From Histomonas meleagridis (lineage: Eukaryota; Parabasalia; Tritrichomonadida; Dientamoebidae): a stretch of DNA of 64,000 nt. The notes below the pieces were generated by a model. It had not been told where the DNA came from, did no database searches, and saw only the letters and a program-made list of their open reading frames with translations. Location: the NCBI GenBank assembly GCA_020186115.1, contig WSYJ01000134.1, forward strand, positions 62,001-126,000, read 5' to 3'. This document shows, piece after piece, positions 2,738-41,884 of the stretch (position 1 is its first letter; each line of letters starts with the position of its first letter). A program made the position numbers and the translations under genes.

Positions 2738-3055
2738 AACTAAAATAAGCTAATAAAGAAAATTTTTGTTTTTAATGCTTCGAAAAAATGAATTTGGCGT
2801 TAAGTGTCAAATAAGAAAAATTTGATTTGAAAAACTGTTCTTCAATTATAATTAGAAATCACATAATTGGATAACTTATGATTTGCTTTTTTGAAGATTT
2901 TTTTACTCAAACTTAGGACCAAAAATGAGAAGTACGATATAACTTTTTGTATTACAATTTTCACTTGAAACTGATCGTTTTTTCCTTTGAAAATAATTTG
3001 AGTTTATTTTGAACGTCTTCGAAATTGAATGATATATTTTAACGGCTTCTTAAAA
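2738..3055 (+). other. Intergenic region between Hsp70 and LRR gene
   Basis: 318 AT-rich bases in which I see no gene or RNA. An in-frame ATG at 3029 could extend the next CDS by nine residues, but the ATG at 3056 (MSLDDV) looks like the more natural start. Confidence 0.4.
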
Positions 3056-5491
3056 ATGTCTCTCGATGATGTAACTACAGATGAAATCCAAAAGTTGATG
3101 GAAAAAATCTCATCAAAAGAGGAAAAGGCTCAATATGCATCTGAAGCTTTGGTTGTTTATGATGATGATGAAAAACATAAACCAAAAGTACACCATTTGT
3201 TAACAACAGAATGTTGCTTTTACCAATTTGATAAAGACAAAGGACTTGAAGCCGATCCTATTTCTACTGATTCTTTGTTTGAACTAACAGAAATACAGAT
3301 AAAAAATGAAGATTTTATTATCAAATTCAAAACTACTCAATATCATTTATCTCTTAATGAACCATTTAAACTTATGGTAAATATTTATACAAATCATAAA
3401 GCATTGTATTGGGGTGTTCATTCTAATCAAATTCCAAGAAGTTCTTCATCTCTTTTACAAAATAATTTTTACCAAGCAGCAGATATGCCACTCCAGCGCC
3501 CAGAAAACCTTCTTCTTATAAGATATGTAGGTTTATGCGTTGCTAAGCATTTATCTCCCGAACCAGAAATAATACAAATTTTCAAAGACTATCAAGAAAA
3601 TCCAAGACGTATTCTTCATTTATCCAACTTTGATCTCCAAACAGTTACGCCCACAATGTTCTCTCTTTTACTTGAAGGAAATCTCAGAAGTATCACATTA
3701 GACAATTTTGGTGTTCATAACTTCGGGGCTGTTCTAAATTGGATTCTGACAAACCAAAGCAAGCTGATATCTGTTGATCTCAAGAATTATGAAACTGCAA
3801 ATTTCAAAGGCATATCAAACAAACGTTCCAGCTTCAATAATGTTAGTACGATTAGAATTCATGATTGTACCACGCAATTTATTCTTGATTTTTTCACAGC
3901 AATGAAAAGTGTTTATTATAAAATCGATACATTAATTTTTGAAAATATTCGATTTGATGAAACAACCACCGAATTGATTGTTACTAGCTTCCAAACATAT
4001 AACTTCTTTTCATCAATAACATCCTTAGCTTTTATTTCATGCACATGTAATAACATTTCATTTAACGAATTCGCCTCTCAAATAATTCAATCGCTTGAAA
4101 AGCTCTCAAATATTCACATTGAAAATTGTAGCGTTGACGTTTGTGACATGTTAACCGTCATCGCACAAACCGATTCATCGGTTCAAAATATTTGTTTACG
4201 TAAAAACTTCGCAAGTTCAGTTATTAGTCATGAACAACATGTAATACCACAATCAATCCTTTCACTTGATTTCGGTAATTGCGATTTTAATACTGATTCT
4301 TTGATATCATTGATTTCTGGAATTTGTCACAGAACAAGAAGATTACCATTGGCTTTAGCAATTAATGCAATCACTATTGATACAACTTGGGTAGACGTTT
4401 TTGAAAGATTAAGTTCGGAATCTTTACTTCCCGTTTTAACAGAATTAAATATCAGTAACAATGAATTTGATAAAAATGCTTTTAAAGCCTTCCTAAAATT
4501 CCTCGAAACTCAATCACCAATTACATCAAAATCACAACAGATTCTTCAACATTTGAACATATCAAAATGTATACCAGAAAAAAACACCAAATCTTCCATG
4601 GACATGCTTCTAGATTTCCTTTCTTCACGTAAGTTATGGGGTCTTGAAGCTTGTGGGATTAAACCAGACATCAGATATAAAGATATTCCATGTCTTTATT
4701 CACTTAATATTGGTGATAACAAAATGGACGATGAGACGAAGTCGATCATATTTGATATCATCCAACAAGCGCCATCTCTTGCAGAACTTGGCGTCGATTC
4801 CCTCGAATTTTCTGATGTGAAGGAAGCCGTTGAATTTTACAATAACGTTTTGGGGTACCCCAAAATTATATCGTTTGACCAACCGAAAAAGTTGATCGAC
4901 GAGAACATTCGTTACAATGAAGTCAAGCGGATGAAAGAAAGTTTTAACAAAAAGCGCCAATTTAGTACTGTCAATCAACGTCTATCGCTTTATCTAGCTT
5001 TAGCGAGTGAGTTTTCAATTCGAGTACCTCAACCAATATCATTTGTTGATTTTGATGAATCAACTAAGGAAGGTTCTAACGTATCTTTTCTCCTTTCAGA
5101 GTCCAAATTTAATAACCCTATACCATCTCTTTTCACATTGGCCAATATGAATAATGTTGATGTAAGTGTAGATCCAATTGCTGCAATGGTATCAGAATAC
5201 GTGTCAACATCAGGAAGATTTGGAACTATTCCACCAACAGCTCCACCTGTTGAACAAGCTAAAGATAAATTTACATTGCCATCAATATTTGCATCGATGG
5301 AAACCAAAAATGAAATGGAGATGTACTCAGTCGACATAGGCTTCGACGTGAACAGTAAGGAGGTTCTAGAACTCTCTGAGCAATTATCTGATGCATTAGA
5401 AAAGGAAGTAAATGTGAACATCAAGGGCGATACTAAGTTTTGGGGAAAGAGGGCCAACTTTGTAGCGTTCGAAACAATGGATTTGCCTTAA
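3056..5491 (+). CDS. Leucine-rich repeat protein with PH-like N-terminus (CARMIL-like)
   Basis: 811 residues from ATG 3056 (820 from the upstream ATG 3029). Residues about 1-30 are helical and charged. About 40-130 look like a small beta-rich PH-like domain (LTTECCFYQFDKDK..., ending in YWG). Then comes a long run of cytoplasmic RI/CARMIL-type LRRs with recurrent L-x-x-L-x-I/L-x-x-N/C patterns (for example LTELNISNNEFD, LYSLNIGDNKMDD). The C-terminal 130 residues are Ser/Pro-containing and probably flexible. This order resembles CARMIL/LRRC16 proteins, which bind capping protein and regulate actin. I see no recognisable capping-protein-interaction motif, so the function is inferred from architecture only. 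The C-terminal 'WGKRANF' patch is of unknown meaning. Confidence 0.7.
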   Translation: MSLDDVTTDEIQKLMEKISSKEEKAQYASEALVVYDDDEKHKPKVHHLLTTECCFYQFDKDKGLEADPISTDSLFELTEIQIKNEDFIIKFKTTQYHLSLNEPFKLMVNIYTNHKALYWGVHSNQIPRSSSSLLQNNFYQAADMPLQRPENLLLIRYVGLCVAKHLSPEPEIIQIFKDYQENPRRILHLSNFDLQTVTPTMFSLLLEGNLRSITLDNFGVHNFGAVLNWILTNQSKLISVDLKNYETANFKGISNKRSSFNNVSTIRIHDCTTQFILDFFTAMKSVYYKIDTLIFENIRFDETTTELIVTSFQTYNFFSSITSLAFISCTCNNISFNEFASQIIQSLEKLSNIHIENCSVDVCDMLTVIAQTDSSVQNICLRKNFASSVISHEQHVIPQSILSLDFGNCDFNTDSLISLISGICHRTRRLPLALAINAITIDTTWVDVFERLSSESLLPVLTELNISNNEFDKNAFKAFLKFLETQSPITSKSQQILQHLNISKCIPEKNTKSSMDMLLDFLSSRKLWGLEACGIKPDIRYKDIPCLYSLNIGDNKMDDETKSIIFDIIQQAPSLAELGVDSLEFSDVKEAVEFYNNVLGYPKIISFDQPKKLIDENIRYNEVKRMKESFNKKRQFSTVNQRLSLYLALASEFSIRVPQPISFVDFDESTKEGSNVSFLLSESKFNNPIPSLFTLANMNNVDVSVDPIAAMVSEYVSTSGRFGTIPPTAPPVEQAKDKFTLPSIFASMETKNEMEMYSVDIGFDVNSKEVLELSEQLSDALEKEVNVNIKGDTKFWGKRANFVAFETMDLP

Positions 5492-5704
5492 ATAAATTGT
5501 CTTTGCATGTGAATTTATAAAAAGGAATTACTGACGATAGAGTTTTCTATGCAACGATAATACTTTTTCTATTTTAAACGATTATTAACCATTGAATCTC
5601 CTATCGTTAAACTTCAATTATATCGAAATAAAAAATTCAACTTTAGAAACGTATAAAAATATTTTTAACCAAAAAAATATTTATTCAATACCTTCTAATT
5701 ATTA

Positions 5705-7484
5705 TTAAGCTTGCTTAAGTAACTTGATTATTTCTGTCTGTTCTGTTACCATTGCAATATTAAGAGCTGTATAAAACAACTTAAACAATTTCCAAATATT
5801 TTCTTGAAATAAAAAATTCCAAAATTTGATTTTAACTAAAATAAATAAATATTTTTTGCATTAATATCAATTCCTTTTTTATTAATAAGTAATTTGACTA
5901 TTTCAGTATATCCTTTGGTGCATGCAATCATAAGTGCTGTTTCAAAAAAATTAAATAAATTTTAAATAATTTTCAGAATTTTTGATATTATTTTTGATAT
6001 TGACATCAATTCCTTTATGTTCGATAAGTAATTTGGATAATTCTATTTCGTCATTTTTTAATGATATAATAAGTGGCGTATCAAATAATTTAAATAATTT
6101 CCAAATATTATTTTAAAATAAAAAATCATTAAATTAAATACGAAATAAAACAAAAAAATATCTTTCACATTTAAATTAATACCTTCTTGATTAATAAGCA
6201 ATTTAACTATTTCTGTATAACCATTTGTAGCTGCATAGATAAGTGCTGTTATAAATAATATAAAAAATTTCCAAATATTATTTTGAAATATTAAATTATT
6301 AAAATAAATTTTAAATAAAACAAATAAATATCTTTGGCATTTAAATTAATACCTTCTTTTTCAAGAAGTAATTTAACTATTTCTGTATGACCCTTCCAAG
6401 ATGCATAAATAAGTGGTGTAACAAATAATTTAAATAATTTCCAAATATTATTTTGAAATATTAAATTATTAAAATAAATACGAAATAAAACATAAAAATA
6501 TTTTTGGCATTTAAATTAATACCTTTTTGTTCAAGAAGTAATTTAACTATTTCTGTAAAACCATTTGTAGCTGCATAGATAAGCGCTGTTTTAAATAATA
6601 TAAAAAATTTCCAAATATTATTTTGAAATATTAAGTAATTAAAATATATTTTAAATAAAACAAATAAATATCTTTTACATTAATATCAATTCCTTTTTGT
6701 TCAAGAAGTAATTTAACTATTTCTGTAAAACCATTTGTAGCTGCATAGATAAGCGCTGTTTTAAATAACCTAAATAATTTCCAAATATTATTTTGAAATA
6801 CTAAATTATTTAAATAAATTTCAAATAAAATAAATAAATTTCTTTAGCATTAATATCAATTCCTTTTTGTTCAAGAAGTAATTTAACTGTTTCTGTATGA
6901 CCATTTTGAGATGATAAAATAAGTGCTTTAACAAATATTATTTTGATATATAAAATTATTTAAATAAATTCTAAACAAAACATTTAAATATCTTTTACAT
7001 TAATATCAATTCCTTTTTGTTCAAGAAGTAATTTAACTATTTCTGTATAACCATTTGAAGATGCACATATAAGTGCTGTATAAAATAATTTAAATAATTT
7101 CCAAATATTATTTTGAAATACTAAATTATTAAAACAAATTTCAAATAAAATAAATAAATTTCTTTAGCATTAATATCAATTCCTTTTTGTTCAAGAAGCA
7201 ATTTAACTATTTCTGTGAAACCATTTGTAGCTGCATAGATAAGCGCTGTTTTAAATAACCTAAAAAAATTCCAAATATTATTTTTAAATATAAAGTAATT
7301 TAAATAAATTTCAAATAAAATAAATTAATACCTTTAGTATTAATATTACATTTACCTTTTTCAATAATTAATTTGCATATTTCAGTGTTACCATTTTTAG
7401 ATGCTAATATAAGAGGTGTTTCATATCATTTAGATATATTCCTAATTGAATGAAAAAACAAAAACATATTTAAAAAAATTTGAA
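5705..7484 (-). repeat. Ankyrin unit/spacer array downstream of DUF3447 gene (minus strand)
   Basis: Continuation of the 7485-8720 gene. About 11 ankyrin units, each about 31 intact codons (pattern TALxxASxxG...EIVKLLLEQKGIDINAKD), are separated by AT-rich spacers with stops or frame changes. The conserved ACAGC at the start of each unit maps at about 7419, 7249, 7079, 6929, 6759, 6589, 6419, 6249, 6079 (variant), 5940 and 5771. The intervals are almost all 170 bp, with one each of 150, 139 and 169. Spacers carry a conserved AATAATATTTGG near their middle and TTATTTAAATTATTT before each unit. The last unit ends in a clean stop (TAA at 5705-5707), as a real gene 3' end would. The array could be a run of tiny exons with unusual introns, or a silent cassette array. 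No GTATGT or ACTAACACACAG splice signals are visible. Confidence 0.75.
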
Positions 7485-8720
7485 TTAACATAAATAAATA
7501 TTTTTAGCATCAATATCAATTTCATTATTTTCAAGAACATATCTGAATAATTCAATATTCCCAGAAAATGCGCAAGGAAATAAAATATTTTTTGGAATAA
7601 GATGTCCACCAATAAAATATTTTACTAGAAATATATTACCAATATGTGATGATTCATAAATAGCAAATTCATTGAATTTAAAATCTTCTTTTTTCATTAT
7701 ATACAAGAGAAGCTTATATGAATCATATAAAATACATTTCACTCTTAAATCTTTTATATCTAATGTTTTAATAATTTTATTTTCATAAAGATATTTAAAG
7801 ATATCATTTCGATGAAATTCAATTGCTGTTTCATATGATCCATAAAATGATGAATGATTTTGTTCACATAAATGAATGATTTCTTCATTTCCACCTGCAA
7901 CTGCATATTTACCTGTGTTTTCTACTTTTGCACCATTCATAAGTAAATATTTGAAACATTTAACTGATCCAAAAAATGCTGCATAATCAATTAATGTAAC
8001 ATTTTTTTTATTAATAAATGAACACCTTTCATAATGTGATGGTATAATATATTGATTAAAATTGAAATCATTTTGTGATGATATTTCTTGAAGTTTTTCT
8101 ATTTCATCATTTCGAATTATTTTTGTAATTTCATTTGGATTATGTCCTTCTTTAATATATTGCTTATGAAGTTCCCAATCATTTTCTTTGATCTCTGTGA
8201 TATTATCTAAGAACCATTGTTTGGTTCGGGAAAATATATAATACGGTTGGTAAAAATTTGTGAATGAATGAATGATTTTATGCTTAAAATCATCAAAACG
8301 ATCTCTCTTTGGAAGATGGTGAATAAAATATAGTGATCGTAAACTTGGTTTAGTTACAATTTCAACATTAGCCAATTTTTGGTTGATCATATTCTCTAAA
8401 ATATAATCTGATTCTTGCGAATATAATGGTAAAAGATATTTAATAAATATATAAAATATTTTGTAGTTATTTATATCTTGAAATTTCTTATCTATTGCCT
8501 TTAAAAAGTCAAAATATATATTAATGTCTTTTCGTTGTGATATAAATGATGAATAAACTAATCTACATATTATATAAAAAAACGAATAAGGATAATTATG
8601 ATCATATAAATTAAGAATTGATCCTACTGATTCATCAATATTTTCAAATTCTAAAGAAAAAACATTTTTTTCAAGTGTAATTAGCATTGGAAAATATCCA
8701 TTTTGAGTTTGTTTCTGCAT
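7485..8720 (-). CDS. DUF3447-type ankyrin protein, N-terminal exon/ORF
   Basis: 411 residues, ATG at 8720. The N-terminal third is helical (LNLYDHNYPYSFFYIICRLVYSS region). It is followed by the block NDWELHKQYIKEGHNPNEI and IIRNDEIEKLQEISSQ, then ankyrin-like repeats including YAAFFGSVKCFKYLLMNGA, AGGNEEIIHLCEQNHSS and AIEFHRNDIFKYLYENK. This is the DUF3447/ankyrin arrangement expanded in trichomonads. The frame ends (IDIDAKNIYLC) exactly where the unit/spacer array to 5705 begins. The visible ORF is therefore probably only the first part of a longer gene. Function is unknown beyond protein-protein interaction. It is divergent from its close paralogue at 9017, and the two share nearly identical central segments. 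Confidence 0.8.
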   Translation of the reverse strand: MQKQTQNGYFPMLITLEKNVFSLEFENIDESVGSILNLYDHNYPYSFFYIICRLVYSSFISQRKDINIYFDFLKAIDKKFQDINNYKIFYIFIKYLLPLYSQESDYILENMINQKLANVEIVTKPSLRSLYFIHHLPKRDRFDDFKHKIIHSFTNFYQPYYIFSRTKQWFLDNITEIKENDWELHKQYIKEGHNPNEITKIIRNDEIEKLQEISSQNDFNFNQYIIPSHYERCSFINKKNVTLIDYAAFFGSVKCFKYLLMNGAKVENTGKYAVAGGNEEIIHLCEQNHSSFYGSYETAIEFHRNDIFKYLYENKIIKTLDIKDLRVKCILYDSYKLLLYIMKKEDFKFNEFAIYESSHIGNIFLVKYFIGGHLIPKNILFPCAFSGNIELFRYVLENNEIDIDAKNIYLC

Positions 8721-9016
8721 TTTCTAAATTTTAATAATCTTTTTTTTTATACCTCGAGATTTTGATTGACACTTTTTGAATATTCACCTCAAAAAGGAAA
8801 CTGTTTAAAATTCTATAGTCACAGGATTAATCTTTGTTCCATATGCAACCTCTAACAAATACATATATTTTTATTATTGATTTTATTGAGCCTATCCCTG
8901 CGTAAGTGGTATTTTAGTATGCATAATTGGAAATTACTAACTTAACACAAAAAACGCATTCCCACCTGTAAAAACCGTTTATATTGGAGTATTAATACGG
9001 TTATAACAGTTTAAAT

Positions 9017-10321
9017 ATGAACACAAGAACAAAAAGAAATCCCTTGAACACTTCAAAAACGCGTGTATCAATCCCAAAAAATATCAAAAAAGTAAACCAA
9101 AGATCACCATTTATTAGTTCTGGAAAATCAAATTCAAAAAAGAATTCAGCGCCATTACAGACACTTGAAAAAATCATTTTTGAACTAACAGAAAATAACA
9201 TTGAATTATCAGCTCAATCAGCGATTATATTTTTTGATAATAATTTTCCTTATTCATTCAATCTTTTGATTAGTAGATTAATTTATAGTGCATTTATATC
9301 ACAAAGAAACGAAGAAAATTTATATTTAAATTTTTTAAAATATATTGAGTCTAAAGAAAAAGATATTAAAAATTATACAATATTTTATGTTTTAAAGAGA
9401 TATCTAATTCAGTTAAAATCACAAGAATCAAATTATTTACTTTTAAAAATGATTGAACATGAACTCATTCAACCGGATTTTATCAAAGAAAAGAAATCAT
9501 TATATTTTGCAAATTATTATACAATTGAAGAAATTCATACATATAAATTCCAAGAACAATTTCTTTCGAATATTGAAGAACTATCAAAGAATGATTGGAA
9601 ACTTCATAAGCAATATATTAAAGAAGGACATAATCCAAATGAAATTACAAAAATAATTCGAAATGATGAAATAGAAAAACTTCAAGAAATATCATCACAA
9701 ACAAATTTTGATTTTAATCAAAAAATTGAGCCATCAGTTTATGAAAGATGTTCTTTTATCAATAAAAAAAATGTTACATTAATTGATTATGCAGCATTTT
9801 TTGGGTCAGTTAAATGTTTTAAATTTTTACTTATGAATGGTGCAAAAATAGAAAATACAGGTAAATATGCAATTGCAGGTGGAAATGAAGAAATCATTCA
9901 TTTATGTGAACAAAATCATACATCATTTAAAGATGCATACGAAACAGCAATTGAATTTCATCGAAATGATATCTTTAAATATTTTTATGAAAATAAAATT
10001 AATAAAATTAAAGATTTAACAAAACTTGGTATTCTTAGTTTGAAACATAACAATTTCCAAACACTTATATTTTTAAAATCAGTTGGCTTGAAAATAAATC
10101 AAGAGATTTTGGAAAAAGCAATAAAAATTGGGAATTTATTCTTTCTTAAACGATATATTAAAAATCAACAATATTATTCAATCATTTGCAATTCCCCTAA
10201 TTCATCAAAAAATTATGAAATAATTAAATTAACTCTTGAACAAAGCAATTTTGATAATGCATCGAAAAATATTTATAAAATTAATTCAATGTTTGTTTTG
10301 ATCTATTTATGTTTAATATAA
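9017..10321 (+). CDS. DUF3447-type ankyrin protein, N-terminal exon/ORF
   Basis: 434 residues with a basic N-terminus (about 40 residues, not shared with the divergent paralogue). The same DUF3447 blocks follow: NDWKLHKQYIKEGHNPNEI, IIRNDEIEKLQEISSQ, AGGNEEIIHLCEQNH and AIEFHRNDIFKY. The central 35-40 residues are almost identical to the gene at 7485-8720, while the flanks differ. This suggests recent duplication or gene conversion limited to the core. The ORF leaves the ankyrin register at 'ASKNIY' (about 10270) and ends in spacer-derived residues. The ankyrin units then resume downstream out of frame (10322-13200). The true product is probably longer if the spacers are removed. Confidence 0.78.
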   Translation: MNTRTKRNPLNTSKTRVSIPKNIKKVNQRSPFISSGKSNSKKNSAPLQTLEKIIFELTENNIELSAQSAIIFFDNNFPYSFNLLISRLIYSAFISQRNEENLYLNFLKYIESKEKDIKNYTIFYVLKRYLIQLKSQESNYLLLKMIEHELIQPDFIKEKKSLYFANYYTIEEIHTYKFQEQFLSNIEELSKNDWKLHKQYIKEGHNPNEITKIIRNDEIEKLQEISSQTNFDFNQKIEPSVYERCSFINKKNVTLIDYAAFFGSVKCFKFLLMNGAKIENTGKYAIAGGNEEIIHLCEQNHTSFKDAYETAIEFHRNDIFKYFYENKINKIKDLTKLGILSLKHNNFQTLIFLKSVGLKINQEILEKAIKIGNLFFLKRYIKNQQYYSIICNSPNSSKNYEIIKLTLEQSNFDNASKNIYKINSMFVLIYLCLI

Positions 10322-13200
10322 ATCTTCTTAGTTTATTTAAATTATATAATAAACAACTTTTAAATGCATCAGATAAAGGTTACGCAGAAACTGTACAATT
10401 ACTTATTAATCAACGTGGAATTAATGTTAATCAACAAGACATTGTTATCTATTGTATCATTGTGATTTAATTGATCAATCAAAGTTTATTTGATTTGTTT
10501 GAAACAGCACTTCATAAAGCATCTAGAAATAATCATTTTGAAATCGTTAAAATACTTCTTGGAAAAAATGGAATTGATGTTAATGCTAAAGATATTTGTG
10601 TGTTTTATTTGATATTTATTTTAATAATTTGATATTTCAAAAATAATATTTGGAAATTATTTTAATTATTTAATACAGCGCTTATATGGGCATCTAAAAA
10701 AGGTAATACTAAAATAGTTCAATTACTTCTCAAACAAAAAGGAATTGATATTAATGCTAAAGATATTTATTTGTTATATATTATATTTGTTTTAGTAATT
10801 TAATTTTTCTAAATAATATTTGGAAATTATTTAAATTATCTAGAACAGCACTTATTGAAGCATCTTCACGAGGTTATATAGAAATAGTTAAATTACTTCT
10901 TGAACAAAAAGGAATTGATGTTAAAGTTAAAGATATTTATTTGTTTTATTTAAAATTTATTTTAATATTTTGATATTTCAATATAATATTTGGAATTTAT
11001 TTTATTTATTTTATACAGCACTTAATGAAGCAACATCAATAGGTCATATAAAAATAGTTAAATTACTTATTGAACAAAAAGGAATTGATATTAATGATAA
11101 AAATGATATATATTATTATAATTTTATATTTTAAAATAATATTTGGAAATTATTTAAATTATTTGATACAGCACTTATTTGGGCGTCTTATAAAGGTCAT
11201 ACAGATATAGTCAAATTACTTCTTGAACAAGAAGGAATTGATATTAATGCTAAAAATGATATATATTATTATAATTTTATATTTCAAAATAATATTTGGA
11301 AATTATTTAAATTATTTAATACAGCACTTATTGAAGCATCTAAAAAAGGTCAAACAGAAATAGTTAAATTACTTTTTGGGAAAAATGGACTTGATGTTAA
11401 TGTTAAAAATTATATTCAATTTCTTATTTCAATATTAAAAAAATGTATTTAAAAATTATTTAGATTATTTAAAACAGTACTTATGTATGCATCTGAAAAT
11501 GGTTATACAGAAATAGTTAAATTACTTCTTGAACGAAAAGGAATTGATATTAATGCTCAAGACATTCATTTATTTTGATTAAATTTTATATAAATAATTT
11601 TATATTTCAATATAATATTTGGAAATTATTTAAATTATTTAGAACAGCACTGATGTATGCATCTTTGAATTGTAATACAGAAATGGTTAAAATACTTCTT
11701 GAGCAAGAAGGAATTGATATTAATGCTAAAGATATTTATTTGTTTTATTTAAGATTTATTTTAATAATTTGATATTTCAAAATAATATTTGGAAATTATT
11801 TAAATTATTTGAAACAGCACTTATGAAAGCATCTGAAGAAGGTCATACAATTATAGTTAATTTACTTCTTGAACAAGAAGAAATTGATATTAATGCTAAA
11901 GATATTTATTTGTTTTATTTAAGATTTATTTTAATAATTTGATATTTCAAAATAATATTTGGAAATTATTTAAATTATTTAGTACAGCACTTATTTTAGC
12001 GTCTAAAAATGGTCATACAATTATAGTTAAATTACTTCTTGAAAAAAAAGGAATCAATATTAACGCTAAAAATATTTGTTTGTTTTATTTAAAATTTATT
12101 TTAATAATTTAGTATTTCAAAATAATATTTGGAAATTATTTTAATTATTTAATACAGCACTTATGATTGCATCTGAAGAAGGTTGTACGGAAATAGTTAA
12201 ATTACTTCTTGAACAAGAAGGAATTGATATTAATACAAAAAATAATATTAATTTTAATAATATGATATTTAAAGTTAATATTCGGGAATTATTTAAATTA
12301 TTTAATACAGCACTTATTTTGGCATCTAAAAATTATACAGATATAGTAAAATTACTTCTTGAACAAAAAAAAATTGATACCAACATTAAAAATATTATAT
12401 ATTTAAAAAATTTGGTGTTTTGAGAAGGAATTTGGGATTTATTTAATTTGTTTGAAACAGTACTTATGCAAGCAACTTATGATGGTAATATAGAAATAGT
12501 AAAATTAATTCTTGAGCAAAAAAAAATTGATATTAACGATAAAAATATTATTTATTTAAAAAATTTAATCTTTTAAAATAATATCTGGAAATTACTTAAA
12601 GTATTTGATACAGTACTTATTATGGCAACTAAAAAAGGTCACACAAAAATATGTAAAATTCTTTTAAAGCAAAAAGGAATCAACATAAACTTAAAAAATG
12701 TTTAGTTGTTCTTTCTAAAGTATCTACCAATCATTTCATATTTCTATTGAAAACATGGGAATTATTGAATTCGTTTGAAACAGCACTTCTTATTGCATCT
12801 GAAAAAGGTCACAGTGATATAGTTAAATTACTTCTTGAACAAAAAGGAATTAATATAAACGAAAAAAATATTTGAATTTTGAAATTAAAGATTTTTTAAA
12901 CAGTTTAATGTTCCAAAAATTTAATCGGAATTTATTTTGTGAATTAGATACAGCACTTATGATTGCATCTTCAAATGATTATATATCAATCGTTAAATTA
13001 CTTCTTGAACAAAAAGAATATAATGTCAAAGCAAAAAATATTTTTTCACTTGCTTTAAAATAGTGTATATTCATCTTAATTTTAAATTCTTGTTTTGGAA
13101 TTTATGCAAACTATTTCATACAGCTCTTACATATGCAATTTCTAGACATCATTCTAAAATTGTTGAACTTCTTCAAAATCATCTAAATATTAATAAATAA
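10322..13200 (+). repeat. 18-unit ankyrin unit/spacer array with 170/153-bp period
   Basis: I count 18 ankyrin units after the first ORF. Each keeps about 31 codons open (TALxxAS-xx-G-x-x-x-IVKLLLEQ-xGIDINAKD) with normal ankyrin-type variation. Unit starts (ACAGC or a variant) are at about 10505, 10675, 10845, 11015, 11168, 11321, 11474, 11644, 11814, 11984, 12154, 12307, 12457, 12610, 12780, 12950 and 13120; the first unit begins near 10350. Intervals are 170 or 153 bp. The single 150 follows a unit that lost one codon. If the ankyrin period is 34 codons (102 nt), the spacers are 68 or 51 nt. Spacers carry stops and a conserved AATAATATTTGG. The last unit ends in a clean TAA at 13198-13200. 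I see no GT-AG consensus at fixed positions. Confidence 0.8.
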
Positions 13201-13493
13201 AACTATATTAATTCATGATGAATTATTCTTTCTAATTTCCTTCTCCAAAGAATTTTTCTTTACCCTTCGAAGGGTTTATTAATTCTTGATTTATCTAGGA
13301 AACAATTAGAGTTATTGTTTCTCATTTGTTTTTATTGAGTCAATAAAAGAAGCAAAAACATGTATGTTATGAACTTGTTTTAATAACGCTGGATAATAAT
13401 AAGTAAAATTAACCATTTTAACAAAAGCGTTCACGAAACATGTTGAAATATCTTAAAATTAAAACTATCAAATTATCAATTTTGAAATTCTTT

Positions 13494-13533
<40 letters not shown>

Positions 13534-14557
13534 GGTTGATCAGAAAGATCTAGGTCAAAAACACTTGGTATAGTAGAAACAAACAATATTTTGAGTTATT
13601 CAATTTAACAAAATTTTATATTATTAAAATTCAATGAGTCTGCACGAACGATATTAAAATTATTAAAATTTTTTGAAATTAAAAGCATTCGGTTCGCACT
13701 TGATTTAGTGTTTTGATAGTAGATCAAATTAATTTGATAGTAGATCAATTGATAAAGATTTTTAAATCCAATTATTCATAAATCTTTTGAATACGTTATT
13801 TATGATGTCTCCTAATAAATAATTTAATAAATGGAAATATAAAAATATGGCTGATCAACAACATTGGGTATGCTTGATCAAGTCAAGATATCTTGAGATG
13901 AACAACACAATTTCTTCAACATAGCAATAACTTTTTATGTAACCAAACGGTTTTCGATCAATGAATTCTTCCATCGTTAATTTTTATTATTATTTCGAAT
14001 TGACTTAATTAAATTTTTAACAATTGAATTTACCCAAGCCTATTGATCTTGATTATTCTAGATTATCATAACTATGGTGACTTCTATTATCTTTAGTCAC
14101 AATTCATTACTCATGTGAAATTTTATAGTTACTTGTAAATATTTAAATATCAAGATTATTAAATGGAATTTCATTTTCCAATGGATAGTAAAATATATAA
14201 AATTTATCAAATTTTATCAAGCTCAAAAAATATGACAATATTAACAACAGGTTATCTTCCTTAAAATTTACTAACAAAACTATTTCATGATTAAAGAACT
14301 GAAAAAAGTAACAATTGGTTTTATATCAAGCCTCCCTTTTTGTAATTTTTTTCATAGAGAGAAAAACCAAAAATTGTACGTTAAAGACTGTATGCGTCAC
14401 TTTTCAATAAAGTGGTAAAACCACATGAAGACGATTGATTGAGAGAGTCAAATTGCCACTTTTTGAAAAATATTCGTGTAAATCATTCAAATTGCTGACA
14501 TTCCCTCAAAACGTTCAGTGGTAACCTCCGCAAAAAAGTGACAATTACTATTGTTCG
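13201..14557 (+). other. Gene-free AT-rich spacer
   Basis: About 1.36 kb with no ORF I would call. It holds a TA microsatellite at 13497-13526. T-rich initiator-like strings (GTCACTTTTC near 14396, GCCACTTTTT near 14455) lie upstream of the ArfGAP gene and could be its promoter, although both are further away than usual. Confidence 0.5.
13497..13526. repeat. (TA)n microsatellite
   Basis: About 15 uninterrupted TA dinucleotides. Confidence 0.95.
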
Positions 14558-23920: not shown

Positions 23921-26900
23921 TTAATTAATTCTTCCATTTTTTTCTCGTTCATCTGAAATTAACATTACATCATCTGCATATACTTGGATTCCCATGTTAA
24001 TATTATCATTTAATTCTTGAATATAGATATCTGTTCCTTTTCGTTCTTCATTAATCTTTCTAATTAGAGGTTCGAGACAAAGATTAAATAAAAGAGGCGA
24101 TAGAGGGCATCCTTGTCTAACTCCTCTTCTTATTCTAATATCATTTGATTTGATTCCATTGATAACAATGTTTGTGGAAATATTTTGATACATAGAATGA
24201 ATAATTTCGATTATATTATTGTTAAAGCCTAATTGTTTCATATTATTAAAGATAAATTTATGTGGAATTGAACCGAATGCATTAGCAAAGTCTAGAGTTG
24301 TAATAATAATATTCCTATTTTTCCTATAAGCATCAGATATTAATTCATTGGCTGTGACTGTATGTTCAGTGCAACCATTACAACCTTTAATGAATCCTTT
24401 TTGTTGTGGTGAGAAAATATGTTTTGATTTGTTTACTATTTGAATACTATCTGCTAATAATGTAGTAAAAATTCTGTAAATTGTATCTGAAATACTTATT
24501 GGTCTCCAATTCTTTGGTATTGATGGGTCATCTTTTTTGAATATTAAAATAGTTTTGGATTGTTTCCATTGTTCTGGTATTTTTTGAAATTTAATAATGT
24601 TTTTAATAATTAGAGATAATAAAATTGCTGTATTTTTTGGATTACTTTTCCAAACAGAATTAGGAATTCCATCTGGACCACATGCAGATAAATTGTCTTT
24701 AATTTTAATTGTATTAATGATATTCTTTTCATCTGTAATATAATCAATAATAAATTTGTTGTCTTCATTAGATAAAAGTTTAGGTAGATACCATGTATCA
24801 TCTTCTATAATATGTTCTTTATTAGCCCATTCATTATTAAAATGTTTTTCAAGTTGTTCGATTGGTATATTACATGAAGGTGTTGTATTGGCTAAAAGTT
24901 TCCATCGGATACATCTTTTAGGATCTTCATCATAAAATTTACGTAGTTTTTCACTTCCTTTTATATCATTTGGGTTTAATTTATCAATATAATTTCTAAG
25001 TATTGTTCTAATCCATTTAAATCTTTCTTCACGATGTTCTTCGTCTTCATTAATTAAATTATCTATATCTTCAACTGATCGGATATTAAATATGTTTTTT
25101 AAATCATCTTCACTAAATTTACTTAATGATTTGATTAAACCTTCTTTAATATTAGCAATAGCATTTAATGCGTTTTGGTTATTGTTTAAATCTTCTTGAT
25201 GTGCATTAATAATATCTATAATTTTATAAATGTAATCAATAATTTTATCGATTTCAATAATTTTATTTTGATATAAGTATAGTTTTTCTTTTCTTATGAT
25301 TTGTTTCTCATCGAATTTAATATTTATTTGATTGAGATTGGGGAATGTATTTGTTAATAGCTTTTGAATTCTATGTGTTGTTTTAATTAAAAATCCATCC
25401 ATAATGTTCCATGTAATGTTATCTTTGTCTAATAAGAATTTAGCTTCTTTGATAATAATATTTTTAAATAATTCATTGATTTTCGGCTGAATAGATTTTC
25501 GCTGTGCTTTGTTTAATCTTTTGAAACTAACGTTTTGATTTCGATATTTATTTCTCCATTTGTTACATTTGTCATTATAAAATTGAAGTTGGTTATTGTT
25601 TAACATTTTAACTGTGTTTTTGGCATTATGATTTAGTTGTTTTTCTTCTTCAATTACTGATGAATTAGATTCTTCCCTGTTTTGAGTTTCGATGTTTAAT
25701 GGATGCAATTCTTCGACTTCTTGAGTTTCTGATTCTTGTTGACTAGTTTCTGTTATGTCTTTAGTCTCTTCTTGATTTATAGTTATATGCTCATTATCTG
25801 AAGAAGATTCACTTTGTTGTTTTTCAATAGAGCTATCTTCTGAATCTTTATAATTTTGGCTATTTGCGATTTCAATTTCTTTTAGTGAACCATTGATTAT
25901 TTGAATTTCTTGGATATTATTTGGTCTAGAACCTCTTATTGTTTGTCTTGAATTGATATGAGTTTGGGAATTATGAAGTCTCATAGCTTGGACTGAACTA
26001 ACTATTGTTCCACATATTGTACATTTAAAACAATCTCTAGGTCTTAATAATTCATAAATTGTGAGTAATGTAGTATTTTCTTTAACATAACTCATAATTA
26101 ACCCCCAAAAAGGGCCTGCATCTTTCCGCCATTTGAGGTAGGTTTTATGTTGCTTTTTATAGTGATCATATGCAGATCCTGTTTTGGTTGTAACATAATT
26201 ACAGTTATTTATTAAACAAATATTTATTTGTCCTAATTTGTTATAAGTATTATTTGTATGATCATATTCATACCACTCAGTATCTTTTTCTAATAAATAT
26301 CCAATGATTTCTGATGATAGACAATTGTGTTTTTGATATTGTTCTTGATGAGTATTGAATAAATGTGAATCAATTTGTTGGTGATGGTTGGTTCCATAAT
26401 TGCAGTTATGATATTTACAACAATAAATATAAGGTTGTGGGAACCAGTTCCTCAGAATCATAAGCTGAATTAAATTAAGTTCCATTATATCAAAATCTGA
26501 ATAGTTGTCAAAAACTGATTGGTTGAGCGTATCAATGTATTCTTTAAGTTGTTTGGTATCTGTGATTGTTTTGAGCTTGTTAATAACTTTATTTGAAATA
26601 TCTTCTTGTTCATTGACTTTATCGACTGTCTGAATGTTAACATTAAATTGAATCGGGTTTTCATCGTCGTCGTCTTCTGGATTTCTAAGAAATTTATCCG
26701 TAGATTCTGAAAATTGATCGTTTTGTGGCTGAATCTCGCTGCTATCCGTCTCCTCAAAAGAAAATTCAGAGGAATCATCGGAATCTTCAGAATTTATAAG
26801 ATCAGGGTCAGAAATTTCCGGTTTTCTAAGAAAAAGTCCTTTGAATAGTCTCACATTTGGAAGGTTTTTGAGATGGTCAAAAGCGGTTTTATCAGCGGCG

Positions 26901-27118
26901 TAGATGATGTCTTCTTCCAAAGCTTCGGGGCTAAGTTTTGGAGATATCGAAGCTCCTAAGGGTGTAGAATGTGCGGGAGAAGGAGTAGAGTCAACTGGGG
27001 TAGGTAAAGTCAAAAGATCTTCTGAATCATTGAGATGATAATCGATCGCGTGGATGTAAAATTCGTAGCCCTCCTGGCTGAGGACTTCTGTTTCCTTCCT
27101 GCGAGCACGTAGCTGCAT
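23921..27118 (-). pseudogene. Retroelement ORF: zinc fingers and reverse transcriptase (frameshifted)
   Basis: 1065 residues from ATG 27118. The acidic N-terminus (about 1-225) is followed by three C2H2 fingers at about 230-390 (CCKYHNCNY..H..H; CLINNCNYVT..H..H; CTICGTIVSS..H..H). A charged linker leads to a reverse transcriptase core from about 750: NWRPISISDTIYRIF, TLDFANAFGSIPH, GVRQGCPLSPLLFNL and QVYADDVMLIS (catalytic YADD). The frame is lost just after the YADD motif in a run of seven A (minus strand, about 23935). Dropping one A in the reading would continue the conserved RT downstream. The fingers presumably gave target recognition. Confidence 0.85.
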
Positions 27119-34978: not shown

Positions 34979-36166
34979 ATGGAAACGCAAAAGACAAGTA
35001 ACTGGGAAATATGTACAAATATTCAGCAAATAATTTTTAATCTAAAAAGTGAAAATTTATCCCAAACAGTATTTTCGTTAGCTAAAATATTTGATATTAA
35101 TTTTTCTTATACTTTTAATTTAATCATTTCCGAAGATATTTATTTATCATTTGCTATCCAAAAAAATGATATAAATTTATATTTAAATTTAATAAAAGAA
35201 ATCAATAAATTTGAAGAAGCTTATAAAAATAAATCAAAATTGGTTTATGTTTTCAAAAAATATTTACTTAAGAATGAGACGCAAGAGTCAAATTATTTTA
35301 TTGAGAACTTGATTCAACAAAATTTAATAGACCCTAAAATTATTAAAAATAAAAGGAAACCATATTTTGTGCATTATATGTCAGAAAAAGAAATTAAAAC
35401 AATTGGAAAATCTGATTTTTTGAATCAAATTATGGAAAATTATGATGAACTTTCAAAGAATGATTGGGAACTTCATAAAAAATTAATTAAAAAAGGACAT
35501 AATCCGAATGAAATTGCAAAATTAATTCGAAATGATGATATCGAAAAACTTCAAGAAGTGTCTTCACAAAATGAATTTGATTATAATCAAACAATTGAAC
35601 CATCACTTTATGAAAAATATTCATTCATTAATAAAGAAAATGTTGCATTAATTGATTATGCAGCATTTTTTTCTTCAATTAAATGTTTTAAATATTTACT
35701 TATGAATGGTGCAAATGTAAATAATGCAGGTAAATATGCAGTTGCAGGTGGAAATGAAGAAATTATTCATTTATGTGAACAAAATCATTCATCATTTGAA
35801 AATGCATATGAAACAGCAATTAAGTTTCATAGAAACGATATCTTTAAATATCTTTATGAAAATAAAAATGATAAATTTAAGAATTTAGAAGAATTGGGAA
35901 TTATATGTATTTTATATCATGACTATGAAATATTTACATTTTTAATTGAAAAAGGTATGAAAATTGATGATAATATTATTAATGAATCAGCAAGAAATGG
36001 AAACATATTTCTCACAAAATATTTTCTTGAAGAAAATCAAATACCTAAAAATATTTTAGTGTTCTCTTCATTATCAGGAAATGAAGAACTTGTTGAATAT
36101 ATTCTCGAACTAAAAAGGATTAATATCAATTTCAAAGTTGTTTTTTTTTCTTTATTAAAAGTTTGA
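34979..36166 (+). CDS. DUF3447-type ankyrin protein, N-terminal exon/ORF
   Basis: 395 residues. The same blocks as in the 7485 and 9017 genes are present (NDWELHKKLIKKGHNPNEI, LIRNDDIEKLQEVSSQ, AGGNEEIIHLCEQNHSS, FHRNDIFKYLYENK) but with clear divergence. This is therefore an older paralogue. A helical N-terminal domain is followed by about five degenerate and regular ankyrin repeats. The ORF leaves the ankyrin register after 'ELKRININFK' (about 36135) and ends in spacer sequence, exactly as at the other two loci. Seven further ankyrin units follow out of frame. The promoter-proximal initiator suggests expression. Confidence 0.78.
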   Translation: METQKTSNWEICTNIQQIIFNLKSENLSQTVFSLAKIFDINFSYTFNLIISEDIYLSFAIQKNDINLYLNLIKEINKFEEAYKNKSKLVYVFKKYLLKNETQESNYFIENLIQQNLIDPKIIKNKRKPYFVHYMSEKEIKTIGKSDFLNQIMENYDELSKNDWELHKKLIKKGHNPNEIAKLIRNDDIEKLQEVSSQNEFDYNQTIEPSLYEKYSFINKENVALIDYAAFFSSIKCFKYLLMNGANVNNAGKYAVAGGNEEIIHLCEQNHSSFENAYETAIKFHRNDIFKYLYENKNDKFKNLEELGIICILYHDYEIFTFLIEKGMKIDDNIINESARNGNIFLTKYFLEENQIPKNILVFSSLSGNEELVEYILELKRININFKVVFFSLLKV

Positions 36167-37299
36167 TTTAATTTCCTTTTATTTAAAATTAATATTTGGA
36201 ATTCATATATAGTATTTAGAACAGCATTGATAAATGCATCTATAAATGGTCATACAGAAATAGTTAAATTACTTCTTAAGCAAAAAGGAATATTTATAAT
36301 GTTATAGATATTTCTTTGTTTATTTTATTATTTATTATAATATTTTTATGTTTCAAAACAATAATCGGAATTTGTCTATAACATTTAGAACTGCATTTAT
36401 GAATGCATCTGATAAAGGTCATGGAAAAATTGTCAAATTACTTCTAGTTCAAGAAGGAATTAATATCAATGAAAAGGACATTTATATATTTCACTTAGTA
36501 TTTATGGAAATATTTTAGTCTTTCAGAATAATATTTGGATTTTATACGATACATTTAAAACAGCACTTATCTTATCATCTTTAAACGGACATACAAAAAT
36601 AGTTAAATTACTTCTCAAACAAGAAGGAATTGATATCAACTCTAAAGATATTTACATATATCACTTAATATTTATAGTAATATTTTGATATTTACTAATA
36701 ATATTTGGTGATTACTCATAGTATTTAAAACCTCACTCATGTACACAGCAAAATATGGGAATCTAGAAATTGTTAAATTACTTCTAGAAAAAGAAGGAAT
36801 TGATATTAATACTAGGGATATTTTTTCTTAAAATTTAATATTTGTTTTATAAATTTAATAATTTAAATTTTTTTTAAAAAATTATTTAAATTATTTAAAA
36901 CAGCACTTCTGATTGCATCTGAGCATAGTCATACCAAAATAGTTAAATTACTTCTTGAACAAAAAGGAATTGATATTAATGCTAGAGATATCACATTATA
37001 TTATTTGAAATATGTATCAATAATTTGATATTTCAAAATGTTATTTGATATTTAATCATTGAATTTAAAACAGCTCTTATGATTGCATCAGAAAGAGGTT
37101 ATTCAAAAATAGTTAAATTACTTCTTGAACAAAAAGGAATTGAAATTAATGCTAAAGATGTTAATATATTTTATTTTGGTTTTGCTTTAACTAATTCAAA
37201 TTTTTACAAAATATTTGGAATTTAACCAAATTGTTTAAAACAGCTTTTATGATTGCATCAGAAAGAGGTCGCAAAGAAATTGTTGATTTACTAGTTTAA
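36167..37299 (+). repeat. Ankyrin unit/spacer array, third locus (170-bp period)
   Basis: Seven ankyrin units. The unit-start motif (ACAGC or variants) is at 36221, 36390, 36560, 36730, 36900, 37070 and 37240. The spacing is 169 once and then exactly 170 five times. Spacer sequences are diverged from those at 5.7-13.2 kb (shared parts are mainly AATAATATTTGG-like and TTTAAAACAGC), yet the period is the same. The last unit ends in a clean stop (GATTTACTAGTTTAA, ending 37299). One unit (about 36221) lacks the usual IDINAKD end. This array supports conservation of spacing rather than mere recent copying. Confidence 0.75.
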
Positions 37300-37859
37300 A
37301 ATGAAAAATGTTAAAAAAAATAGAAACTCAAAATGAAAATTACATATTAGTGTGAACTTGAAAGCTTTTCATAATTACATGCAAAAAAATTTAGTTGATA
37401 AAATCTGGTTCTCAAATTATATTTCAAGCATTAGGAAATCATAATGTTACCGCTACCAAAAATTTTTCCAAAAGCGATTCTATATGTGGGTCTCCTTACT
37501 TGAAGTTCCTTGTTTCTCTTGATCGAATCATATTTAACTGAAGAAAATTTTTAAAAATCTTTGCAACAAACAAAATTATTCGACTTAAGTTTTCCATCCT
37601 CATTTAATGTTGTTGTCAGTAAAACTGTTTTTTCTGCATCTTTTAATAATTTGGTATATGTTTTAAAAATTTCATGTTTTTTCAAAAGTATTGTGTTTGT
37701 TTTGATGATTTTTAGTTTTACTAATAATTCGTAGTTTATTTTATTAATTTGCTGTTTGTTTTAATTATTTAGAATTCAAAAAGGTATTCCTTTTTTACTT
37801 TTTATGTTTATATACAAAATTTGAAATAATTTAAATCATTTGGAATTCATTATAAAAAT
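37300..37859. other. AT-rich spacer
   Basis: 560 bases with no gene seen. Confidence 0.4.
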
Positions 37860-38085
37860 TTAAAACACCTCTTCATATAGCAGTTGAAAACGATAATAAA
37901 GAAATCGTTAAATTACTTTTGGAGCTAAAAGGAATTGATGTTAATGCGATAAAAATTTATTTTAAAGATATAACTACTTAAACATCATCTTTAAAAAAGA
38001 TATCTAGACAGCATCTATGTGTGCATCTTAGAAGGGTTATATAGAAATTGCTGATTTAATCAACAGCAAATGTAAATCAGTAAGA
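37860..38085 (+). pseudogene. Decayed ankyrin units
   Basis: One recognisable unit (TPLHIAVENDNKEIVKLLLE, then IDVNA) is followed by a second with an in-frame stop (MCAS*KGYIEIADLI). The first is separated from the preceding array by about 560 bp. The 170-bp spacing is lost and stops lie inside the units, in contrast to the intact arrays. Confidence 0.6.
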
Positions 38086-40810: not shown

Positions 40811-41884
40811 ATGCGAACAAATATCCGAAACCAAAATATTTCTACTGATAAATGCCAACTTAAAACTATGGAACAGGCTATTTTTGGCTTAAAAGAAGAT
40901 AACATGGAAACGTCTGTAATTGAAGCTATGAATTTATTTGACTCCAAATATCAATATTCATTTAATCTTGTTGTTTGTAGATTTGTCTACACTGCATTTA
41001 TTTCGAAAAAACAAGGAGAAAATTTATATTTTGAATTTTTAAAAAATATTGAATTGAGAGAACAACAGGTTATTCAGACTGCACATGGTCCAGTAGAACT
41101 CTTTAGCAAGTTTTTGTTTTGCCAAGAATCACAAGAGTCATTTTATCTTCTTGAAAGAATGATAGAAAACGGATTAACCGATCCTATTTTTGGCAAGAAC
41201 AAAAGAAGCTTATATTTTTCTCATTACAAGACACTTGATGAAGTTAAAGCGTTAAAATGGAAACCTTTTTGGTTTGAGTTTTTCAATAATCTTCCAAGAC
41301 TTTCACGAAATGATTGGAAACTTCATCGCAAATTTGTATCTGATGGTGTTAATCCATCCACTGTATCCAAAGTTATACGTAATGATGATATTGAACGACT
41401 TCAATTACTTTCATCGAGTTTATTTTTTAATTTTAACATGAAAATTAAGCCATCATTATATGAGAGATTTTCTTTTATTAATGAGAAGCCTGTAAATCTT
41501 ATTGAATTCAGTGCATTTTTTGGCGCTGTTAAATGTTTTAAATTTTTGTTATTAAATGGCGGAATAGTAAAATATGCCGGAAAGTTTGCAGTCGCAGGCG
41601 GGAATCTCGAAATTATACATTTGTGCGAGCAAAATCATGCGTCATTTGATATGGGATTCGAAATTGCGATAAAGTTCCATCAAAATGATGTTTTTAAATA
41701 TCTTTATGAGAACCATTTAACTAAAGATAAAGGACTGGTGTACATGGGCACAAAATGTATCGATTGTAATAATTATGAACTGTTGGCATTCTTGGAACGC
41801 GAAGGGCTGAGAATCGATGAAAGAATAATTAGTGAGTCAGCAAGAATCGTTTTCACGAAGTTAAGCAGTACAAAATTTAATTAA
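40811..41884 (+). CDS. DUF3447-type ankyrin protein, truncated copy
   Basis: 357 residues. It is the most diverged of the four DUF3447 genes here (NDWKLHRKFVSDGVNPSTV, VIRNDDIERLQLLSS, AGGNLEIIHLCEQNHAS, KFHQNDVFKYLYENH). After SESARI the sequence leaves the family and stops (VFTKLSSTKFN), and no ankyrin unit/spacer array follows. It is probably 3'-truncated, either by deletion or by the arrival of the decayed gene at 41.96 kb. It is divergent (about 80 bp) from the glucosidase II beta gene. Confidence 0.7.
   Translation: MRTNIRNQNISTDKCQLKTMEQAIFGLKEDNMETSVIEAMNLFDSKYQYSFNLVVCRFVYTAFISKKQGENLYFEFLKNIELREQQVIQTAHGPVELFSKFLFCQESQESFYLLERMIENGLTDPIFGKNKRSLYFSHYKTLDEVKALKWKPFWFEFFNNLPRLSRNDWKLHRKFVSDGVNPSTVSKVIRNDDIERLQLLSSSLFFNFNMKIKPSLYERFSFINEKPVNLIEFSAFFGAVKCFKFLLLNGGIVKYAGKFAVAGGNLEIIHLCEQNHASFDMGFEIAIKFHQNDVFKYLYENHLTKDKGLVYMGTKCIDCNNYELLAFLEREGLRIDERIISESARIVFTKLSSTKFN

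Follow-up and report, generated by a model that had tools for sequence, protein, structure and literature searches.

Ankyrin genes of Histomonas meleagridis in single-repeat units separated by stop-bearing spacers

A DUF3447 gene of Histomonas meleagridis is followed by a row of single ankyrin units set apart by spacers that carry stop codons, and the same arrangement recurs throughout the genome. The units are constrained as code, canonical splice signals are absent from the spacers, and the places at which neighbouring units could be joined are limited by the reading frame. This split-array pattern is real, widespread and unexplained by the known introns of the lineage. The array is probably the remainder of the DUF3447 gene, with spacers that are taken out, most likely at the RNA level, by a non-GT..AG route. 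We infer all three elements of this reading, namely the removal, its RNA level and its machinery, from the DNA sequence. A large gene family in one-repeat pieces suggests an unusual route of sequence removal before protein.

H. meleagridis is regarded as having almost no introns. Removal of the spacers would mean that this poultry parasite has thousands of introns missed by annotation, which neither follow GT..AG nor show the end pairing of the euglenozoan cases, and these would be abundant, near-repetitive natural substrates for learning how non-GT..AG introns are recognised. It would further reveal an extensive family of long, receptor-like ankyrin proteins with variable contact positions, a family hidden because most such genes appear to stop after exon 1.

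The window gene and its family

The window is the whole 64,000-nucleotide stretch of DNA that was analysed (C71:62001-126000). Its array was read directly over 8400-14400 and scanned for units with a profile. Both confirmed the original prediction of 18 open units with stop-bearing spacers between them: 18 single ankyrin units lie between 10348 and 13200 on the plus strand, 17 of them open across 29-31 codons, and unit 18 ends, as claimed, on a clean stop. Each unit in the following list rests on sequence and profile.

9017..10270, plus strand: exon 1, DUF3447-type N-terminal region with an ankyrin-like unit at its end (Pfam PF11929, E 4.7e-09)
10271..10347, plus strand: spacer 1, 77 nt (80 including the next variable codon; from sequence and the 20-nt register)
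10271..13116, plus strand: 18 spacers from exon 1 to the terminal unit, between the listed units (from sequence)
10348..10440, plus strand: unit 1, variable codon and 30 codons
10501..10593, plus strand: unit 2, with an 81-nt spacer after it
10672..10764, plus strand: unit 3
10842..10934, plus strand: unit 4
11012..11104, plus strand: unit 5, then one extra codon ahead of the spacer
11165..11257, plus strand: unit 6
11318..11410, plus strand: unit 7
11471..11563, plus strand: unit 8
11641..11733, plus strand: unit 9
11811..11903, plus strand: unit 10
11981..12073, plus strand: unit 11
12151..12243, plus strand: unit 12
12304..12393, plus strand: unit 13, shorter by one codon
12454..12546, plus strand: unit 14
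12607..12699, plus strand: unit 15
12777..12869, plus strand: unit 16
12947..13039, plus strand: unit 17
13117..13200, plus strand: unit 18, terminal cap with TAA at 13198-13200; no later unit detected

The T codons of TAL lie at 10351, 10504, 10675, 10845, 11015, 11168, 11321, 11474 and 11644 in units 1-9, and at 11814, 11984, 12154, 12307, 12457, 12610, 12780, 12950 and 13120 in units 10-18. The predicted spacings of 170 and 153, and the single 150 that follows from the codon missing in unit 13, hold; one spacing of 171 (10504 to 10675) had been overlooked and comes from one added base in an A run of the spacer. The array had been taken to begin at 10322. Its first unit starts at about 10348, and the exon-1 ORF (9017-10321, stop 10319-10321) already extends into spacer 1 and stops there. 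When exon 1 was compared with Pfam, DUF3447 was the sole match; NACHT and NB-ARC were not found.

Two further genes of this kind lie in the window.

5700..8720, minus strand: second such gene (DUF3447 ORF 8720-7485; units from 7419 to 5770, the final one closed by a stop)
34979..37330, plus strand: third such gene (DUF3447 ORF 34979-36166; units from 36221 to 37240, the final one closed by a stop)

The second gene is head to head with the gene at 9017, their ORF starts about 300 bases apart. Past the terminal stop of the third are two more unit-like stretches on the plus strand, at 37865 and 38008. The window also holds a DUF3447 ORF at 40811-41884, where no array was detected, and on the minus strand at 23921-27118 a 1065-aa ORF with a reverse transcriptase domain (PF00078).

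The genome was searched over 43,276,120 bases in 121 contigs. A strict unit-spacer-unit pattern with a gap of 56-86 nt gave 2,680 matches, against 0 in the reversed control, and the proposal of one gene of tiny exons, with spacers to remove and no GT..AG pair at a fixed phase, is thereby supported and extended genome-wide. With a gap of 3-33 nt the same pattern gave 5 matches, against 1 in the control. By eye, these are three other, uninterrupted ankyrin genes, one unrelated sequence and one deletion copy (C86:303266) whose frame is left broken; no intact uninterrupted copy of this array is among the five, in a search whose strict pattern divergent recipients could escape. Viral contigs gave 223 pattern matches, with no relative among them. 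A DUF3447 profile search found 98 matches in 97 scored candidates of 2,432, and 30 of the 97 loci were fetched for gene anatomy. At least one further single unit follows exon 1 in 28 of the 30 (L068 shows none, and L044 leaves the examined sequence). In 26 of the 30, the stop of the exon-1 ORF lies within the first spacer or, out of frame, shortly after it; exon 1 of L043 and L064 reads through the first spacer, which counts against removal. The terminal unit in many fetched loci lacks the GIDINAKD tail and is closed by a stop, and first and last units have a specialised sequence of their own. No description of such split ankyrin arrays was found in the literature searched, in which subscription papers are thinly covered.

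The main rival to removal of the spacers is a silent repeat reservoir, in which exon 1 alone is translated and the units are a stock from which conversion or unequal crossing over supplies expressed genes. The early end of the exon-1 ORF in most fetched loci is in keeping with this, as are the likeness of loci in both unit and spacer (81-91% identity among the matches listed) and the frameshifted units of some arrays (C72). The search, however, revealed no uninterrupted recipient array (five short-gap matches, none intact, against 2,680 with a spacer under the strict pattern), and specialised first and last units also speak against a stock. The silent-cassette alternative of the original prediction is weakened by these two results, and we regard it as unlikely.

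Relatives of the family offer further points in favour of spacer removal. A protein search gave 47 hits, four of them named Histomonas, and the first 23 proteins were examined. P0001-P0017 are 39-60% identical to fetched loci, and none of 95 scored places in the genome exceeds 60% identity to P0006; because of these low identities, most of the hits not named Histomonas probably belong to another parabasalid. Such relatives of apparent other species carry the same first exon. Seven of the 23 (P0001, P0004, P0005, P0007, P0010, P0013 and P0017) end right at the exon boundary, after ..KDI/KGI/QDI/KDV, the end being a stop or a contig end, while P0008 and P0015 continue into a spacer that is alike in sequence and length. 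A search covering 298-947 aa shows no joined protein of the family among the matches listed (120 of 1,728, top identity 54%), which counts against removal. In metagenomic P0026 and in P0037 of Tritrichomonas musculus, the reading frame appears to run on from an ankyrin repeat through a similar spacer. The contig CALUSQ010000040.1 (L087), filed under a Gastranaerophilales MAG, carries the apparent first part of P0001, a parabasalid-like DUF3447 gene, and is a probable contamination of that bacterial MAG.

Coding constraint and spacer register

Stop codons are nearly excluded from the units. In 249 distinct 30-codon units one stop was observed, against 128.4 expected from independent columns; 96 of those expected fall on codons 10 and 13, where none was seen. 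The 80-nt spacers show nothing comparable in any frame (observed/expected stops 168/194, 822/794 and 92/120). A search of the fetched loci gave 481 unit hits, of which 22 partial and 2 edge hits were dropped, and 433 of the remaining 457 full-length hits are intact. At least 9 of the 24 disrupted units are the last detected unit of their array, closed by a stop. A silent stock should tolerate more broken units than these 24. All such unit and spacer counts are non-independent, because the copies are related.

A decaying repeat array was rejected as a general explanation, given the single stop against 128.4 expected and the 433 of 457 intact units. One array, at C72:131515-136556, does show 1-nt frameshifts in several units, together with repeated blocks, and looks like a decaying array.

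Coding starts at the codon just before TAL, which adjoins the conserved TTT of the spacer, because this codon never holds a stop in 248 cases, where 22.9 would be expected, and it varies strongly: mid-distance pairs differ at its three positions in fractions of 0.65, 0.44 and 0.63, compared with means of 0.19, 0.12 and 0.18 for unit codons. Within the unit, replacement difference is 0.30 at codons 9, 10, 13, 14, 16 and 17 and 0.04 at the other 24, the six having been picked in one variation analysis and the differences counted in a second. These six and the codon before TAL are the usual ankyrin contact positions. Distant unit pairs differ by 0.175 at second codon positions, against 0.345 at first positions, 0.333 at third positions and 0.337 in spacers. 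In close pairs, spacers differ by 0.072 and the three unit positions by 0.10, 0.08 and 0.09, which counts against removal; since close-pair spacers are as alike as units, the spacer letters must be constrained or homogenised. The dN/dS comparison between units that had been proposed gave a divided answer, 1.5-1.7 for the closest pairs and 0.46-0.78 for distant pairs (random 35% of pairs). A per-codon count found no excess of replacement at the variable codons (0.93 vs 0.85), and no claim of positive selection on the units is made.

The spacers follow a register of 20 nt. Counted between the final codon of a unit and the TAL that follows, their lengths are mostly 40, 60, 80, 100 nt and higher multiples, reaching 460 nt in L058; 80 is 4x20, and 63 is 3x20 plus one extra codon. 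These multiples replace the two fixed spacer classes of 68 and 51 nt first proposed. A 17-nt quantum (170-153) was also ruled out: the interval minus the unit (87 or 90 nt) is a multiple of 20 in 17 of 17 single intervals of L055, L058, L066 and L067, a double interval of L066 being omitted. By eye the spacers of these four loci are tandem 20-nt repeats, and in L058 a period of 20 is also called by Tandem Repeats Finder, with rows such as 2685-2760 (3.8 copies) and 2853-3750 (44.5 copies, a unit included). The 80-nt spacer of the main family is read as four diverged 20-nt segments. Among the first 100 genome-wide matches listed, 94 fall on 60, 63, 66, 80 or 83 nt (range searched 56-86), and the others are 64, 64, 68, 79, 81 and 81 nt. 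Off-register lengths do occur, 81 nt being the commonest and often reflecting one base in an A run; the spacer is therefore not read as code.

For the analyses below, 248 of 297 unique spacers were retained as on-register by length modulo 20 and 49 off-register ones dropped; the set includes a few false intervals (such as C77 at 2675, L055 at 201 and C114 at 2849). A set of 34 spacers less than 72% alike, which also contains those false intervals, has in common a 5' (A/G/T)TTTATTT, a 3' ATTT, and a TTTGGAA about 20-26 nt before the unit, whose two G occur in 24/34 and 22/34. A micro-exon TTTGGAAAT ('FGN') within the spacer, flanked by two introns, was ruled out, since the 40-nt spacer of L067 and some C86 spacers lack it.

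The ribosome might instead pass the spacers by frameshifting, bypass or read-through. Some 60-nt spacers are open in frame, for example the first spacers of L072-L074, which count against removal; in L070, L072, L073 and L074 the first spacer is short or in-frame open and exon 1 continues into unit 1. Spacer lengths of 20n, however, fall in all three frames, 60-nt spacers are not clearly more often open than 80-nt ones (17/27 vs 89/194, Fisher p 0.10), and a TAA stands shortly before the unit in spacers of L055, L058, L066 and L067. Translation through the spacer or by a fixed -1 shift is ruled out by the lengths and by openness that is not clearly raised, and ribosomal passage in general is very improbable.

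Joins, splice signals and routes of removal

Removal of the spacers was explored by scanning all in-frame joins 0-12 bases from each end of the 248 spacers. Seven joins are left with no more than one stop, the next two have 5, and the rest at least 12; the sole stop among the seven is in a false interval beyond an array end. The seven use at most 4 bases of the 5' end of the spacer and at most 3 of the 3' end, and they give 31, 32 or 33 residues per repeat. Certain spacer-free sequences count against such joins. L069 (C63:50200-51000) and P0006, apparently from two species, lack the first spacer and have the linker VLFE or VMFE in its place; L071 likewise has a four-residue linker where the first spacer is missing, and three uninterrupted ankyrin junctions in other genes have a four-codon linker with glycine. 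A 34-residue join, taking three codons from the spacer flanks as in L069 and P0006, was tried and is disfavoured because even its better versions leave 12-30 stops in the 248 spacers.

No conserved splice dinucleotide was found at the spacer ends, which counts against removal. GT..AG, the canonical U2 signal, occurs in 0 of 248 spacers at each of the seven best joins, and 28 of the 248 have no GT ahead of the last 10 bases. The original prediction that trichomonad signals are absent needs softening to near-absent: in 233 distinct spacers the type A/B searches found GYAYGY 3 times (GTATGT once), CTAAC twice and RCTAACACAYAG not at all. U12-type introns carry the motifs ATATCC and CCTTAAC. Each was found in 0 of 233 spacers, and AT..AC in at most 1 of 248 per join. 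Self-splicing group I/II introns gave no Rfam match, two tRNAs being the only hits in the window at the gathering threshold. Pairing of the spacer ends (12+12 nt, 247 spacers) is 0.09 against 0.27 in shuffles at join 0,0, which counts against removal, and 0.21 against 0.30 at join 3,3. Whole-spacer folds, for 60 sampled from the 248, have a mean z of -1.0 (sd 1.6).

Ordinary splicing does exist in this genome. At C21:116564-116588 (L088) there is a clear 25-nt GTATGT..CTAACACATAG intron resembling trichomonad type B, between two 99-codon open stretches that both reach the edge of the fetched piece and that by eye read like one protein kinase. L089 is a plausible candidate (phase 0, open on both sides for 100 and 48 codons); L090 is not plausible. 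The sequence CTAACACACAG occurs 11 times in the genome, against 4 in the reversed control, with a GTATGT-like site upstream in 7 of the 11 (2.0 expected from shuffles) and an exact GTATGT in 6 (0.7 expected); a looser intron search has no overall enrichment, because it gave 63 matches against 380 in the control. A U6 with an ACAGAG box lies at C36 (43.7 bits, just below the family cut-off of 44), and a U1 search had no match while its controls were silent as well. Because ordinary GT..AG introns exist in the same genome, the spacers differ from the introns alongside them. At most one intron per gene is reported in the published H. meleagridis annotation (PMC8529796), which counts against removal.

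Given U6 and these ordinary introns, a U2 spliceosome might remove the spacers through highly divergent sites, such as are reported for the chordate Fritillaria (cited in PMC12621601). The shared 5', internal and 3' spacer motifs could serve such sites. GT is present somewhere in 206 of 233 distinct spacers, yet GT..AG falls at none of the seven best joins, any in-frame stop-free GT..AG exists in only 47 of 248, and CTAAC is as rare as noted above; this explanation seems rather doubtful. Removal from DNA in an expressed copy, as with the internal eliminated sequences of ciliates, would suit the AT-rich composition and quantised length of the spacers and the short direct repeat ATTT at both ends. 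No second nuclear genome is known in trichomonads, and C86:303266 shows that a simple ATTT-to-ATTT deletion leaves a broken frame. The chance that removal takes place on DNA appears very small.

Removal from RNA is the simplest reading, because the units are constrained and the spacer frames are not, the end units are specialised, and uninterrupted copies were not found. Each unit would be a phase-0 exon encoding one ankyrin repeat, the last unit would be a cap exon carrying the stop codon, and the AT-rich, 20-nt-register spacers would be intervening sequences cut from the transcript. The cuts would fall no more than about 4 nt past the final codon of one unit and no more than 3 nt before the opening codon of the next, and joining would yield 31- to 33-residue repeats in a long ankyrin solenoid. 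Removal would rely neither on GT..AG nor on the 5' and branch/3' signals of trichomonads, nor on paired spacer ends, and a deviant or spliceosome-independent route acting on RNA seems most likely; candidate features by which the spacer might be recognised are its 20-nt register, the internal TTTGGAA and the T-rich sequence at the 5' and 3' ends. More tentatively, the spacers could form a new class of intron: thousands of AT-rich sequences that have neither splice dinucleotides nor paired ends, lengthen and shorten by 20-nt tandem steps, and are removed from RNA by an undescribed machinery.

Comparison with known systems

The internal eliminated sequences of ciliates are AT-rich, quantised in length and bounded by short direct repeats, and are removed from DNA in organisms with a somatic nucleus. 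The spacers resemble them in composition, quantised length and direct repeats, and differ in that no somatic nucleus is known in this lineage.

The canonical type A and B introns of trichomonads are marked by GT..AG, by GYAYGY and by a CTAAC signal in which branch and 3' site are fused (PMC12316389). Like the spacers, they are intervening sequences (23-196 nt) in parabasalid protein genes, L088 being the clear case here; the spacers lack those signals and are many per gene. The nonconventional introns of euglenids and diplonemids are described as lacking GT..AG, coexisting with canonical introns and a spliceosome, and having short direct repeats at ends that base pairing brings together (PMC12621601; PMC6221363). 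The spacers share the lack of GT..AG, the ordinary introns alongside and the end repeats. Unlike the euglenozoan introns, they have ends that pair less than shuffles do, they occupy one position per ankyrin repeat, and they keep a 20-nt register. Because end pairing was not found, we describe the spacers as working like nonconventional introns and not as members of that class.

As to the proteins, fungal NLR proteins whose ANK, WD or TPR repeats show high internal conservation are reported to form large families of near-identical repeats that vary at contact positions and evolve in concert (PMC4986451). The window gene differs from these in that its exon 1 is DUF3447, with no NACHT or NB-ARC, and each repeat here is set off by a spacer. 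The split ankyrin genes share with the fungal proteins their large families, near-identical repeats, variable contact positions and concerted evolution.
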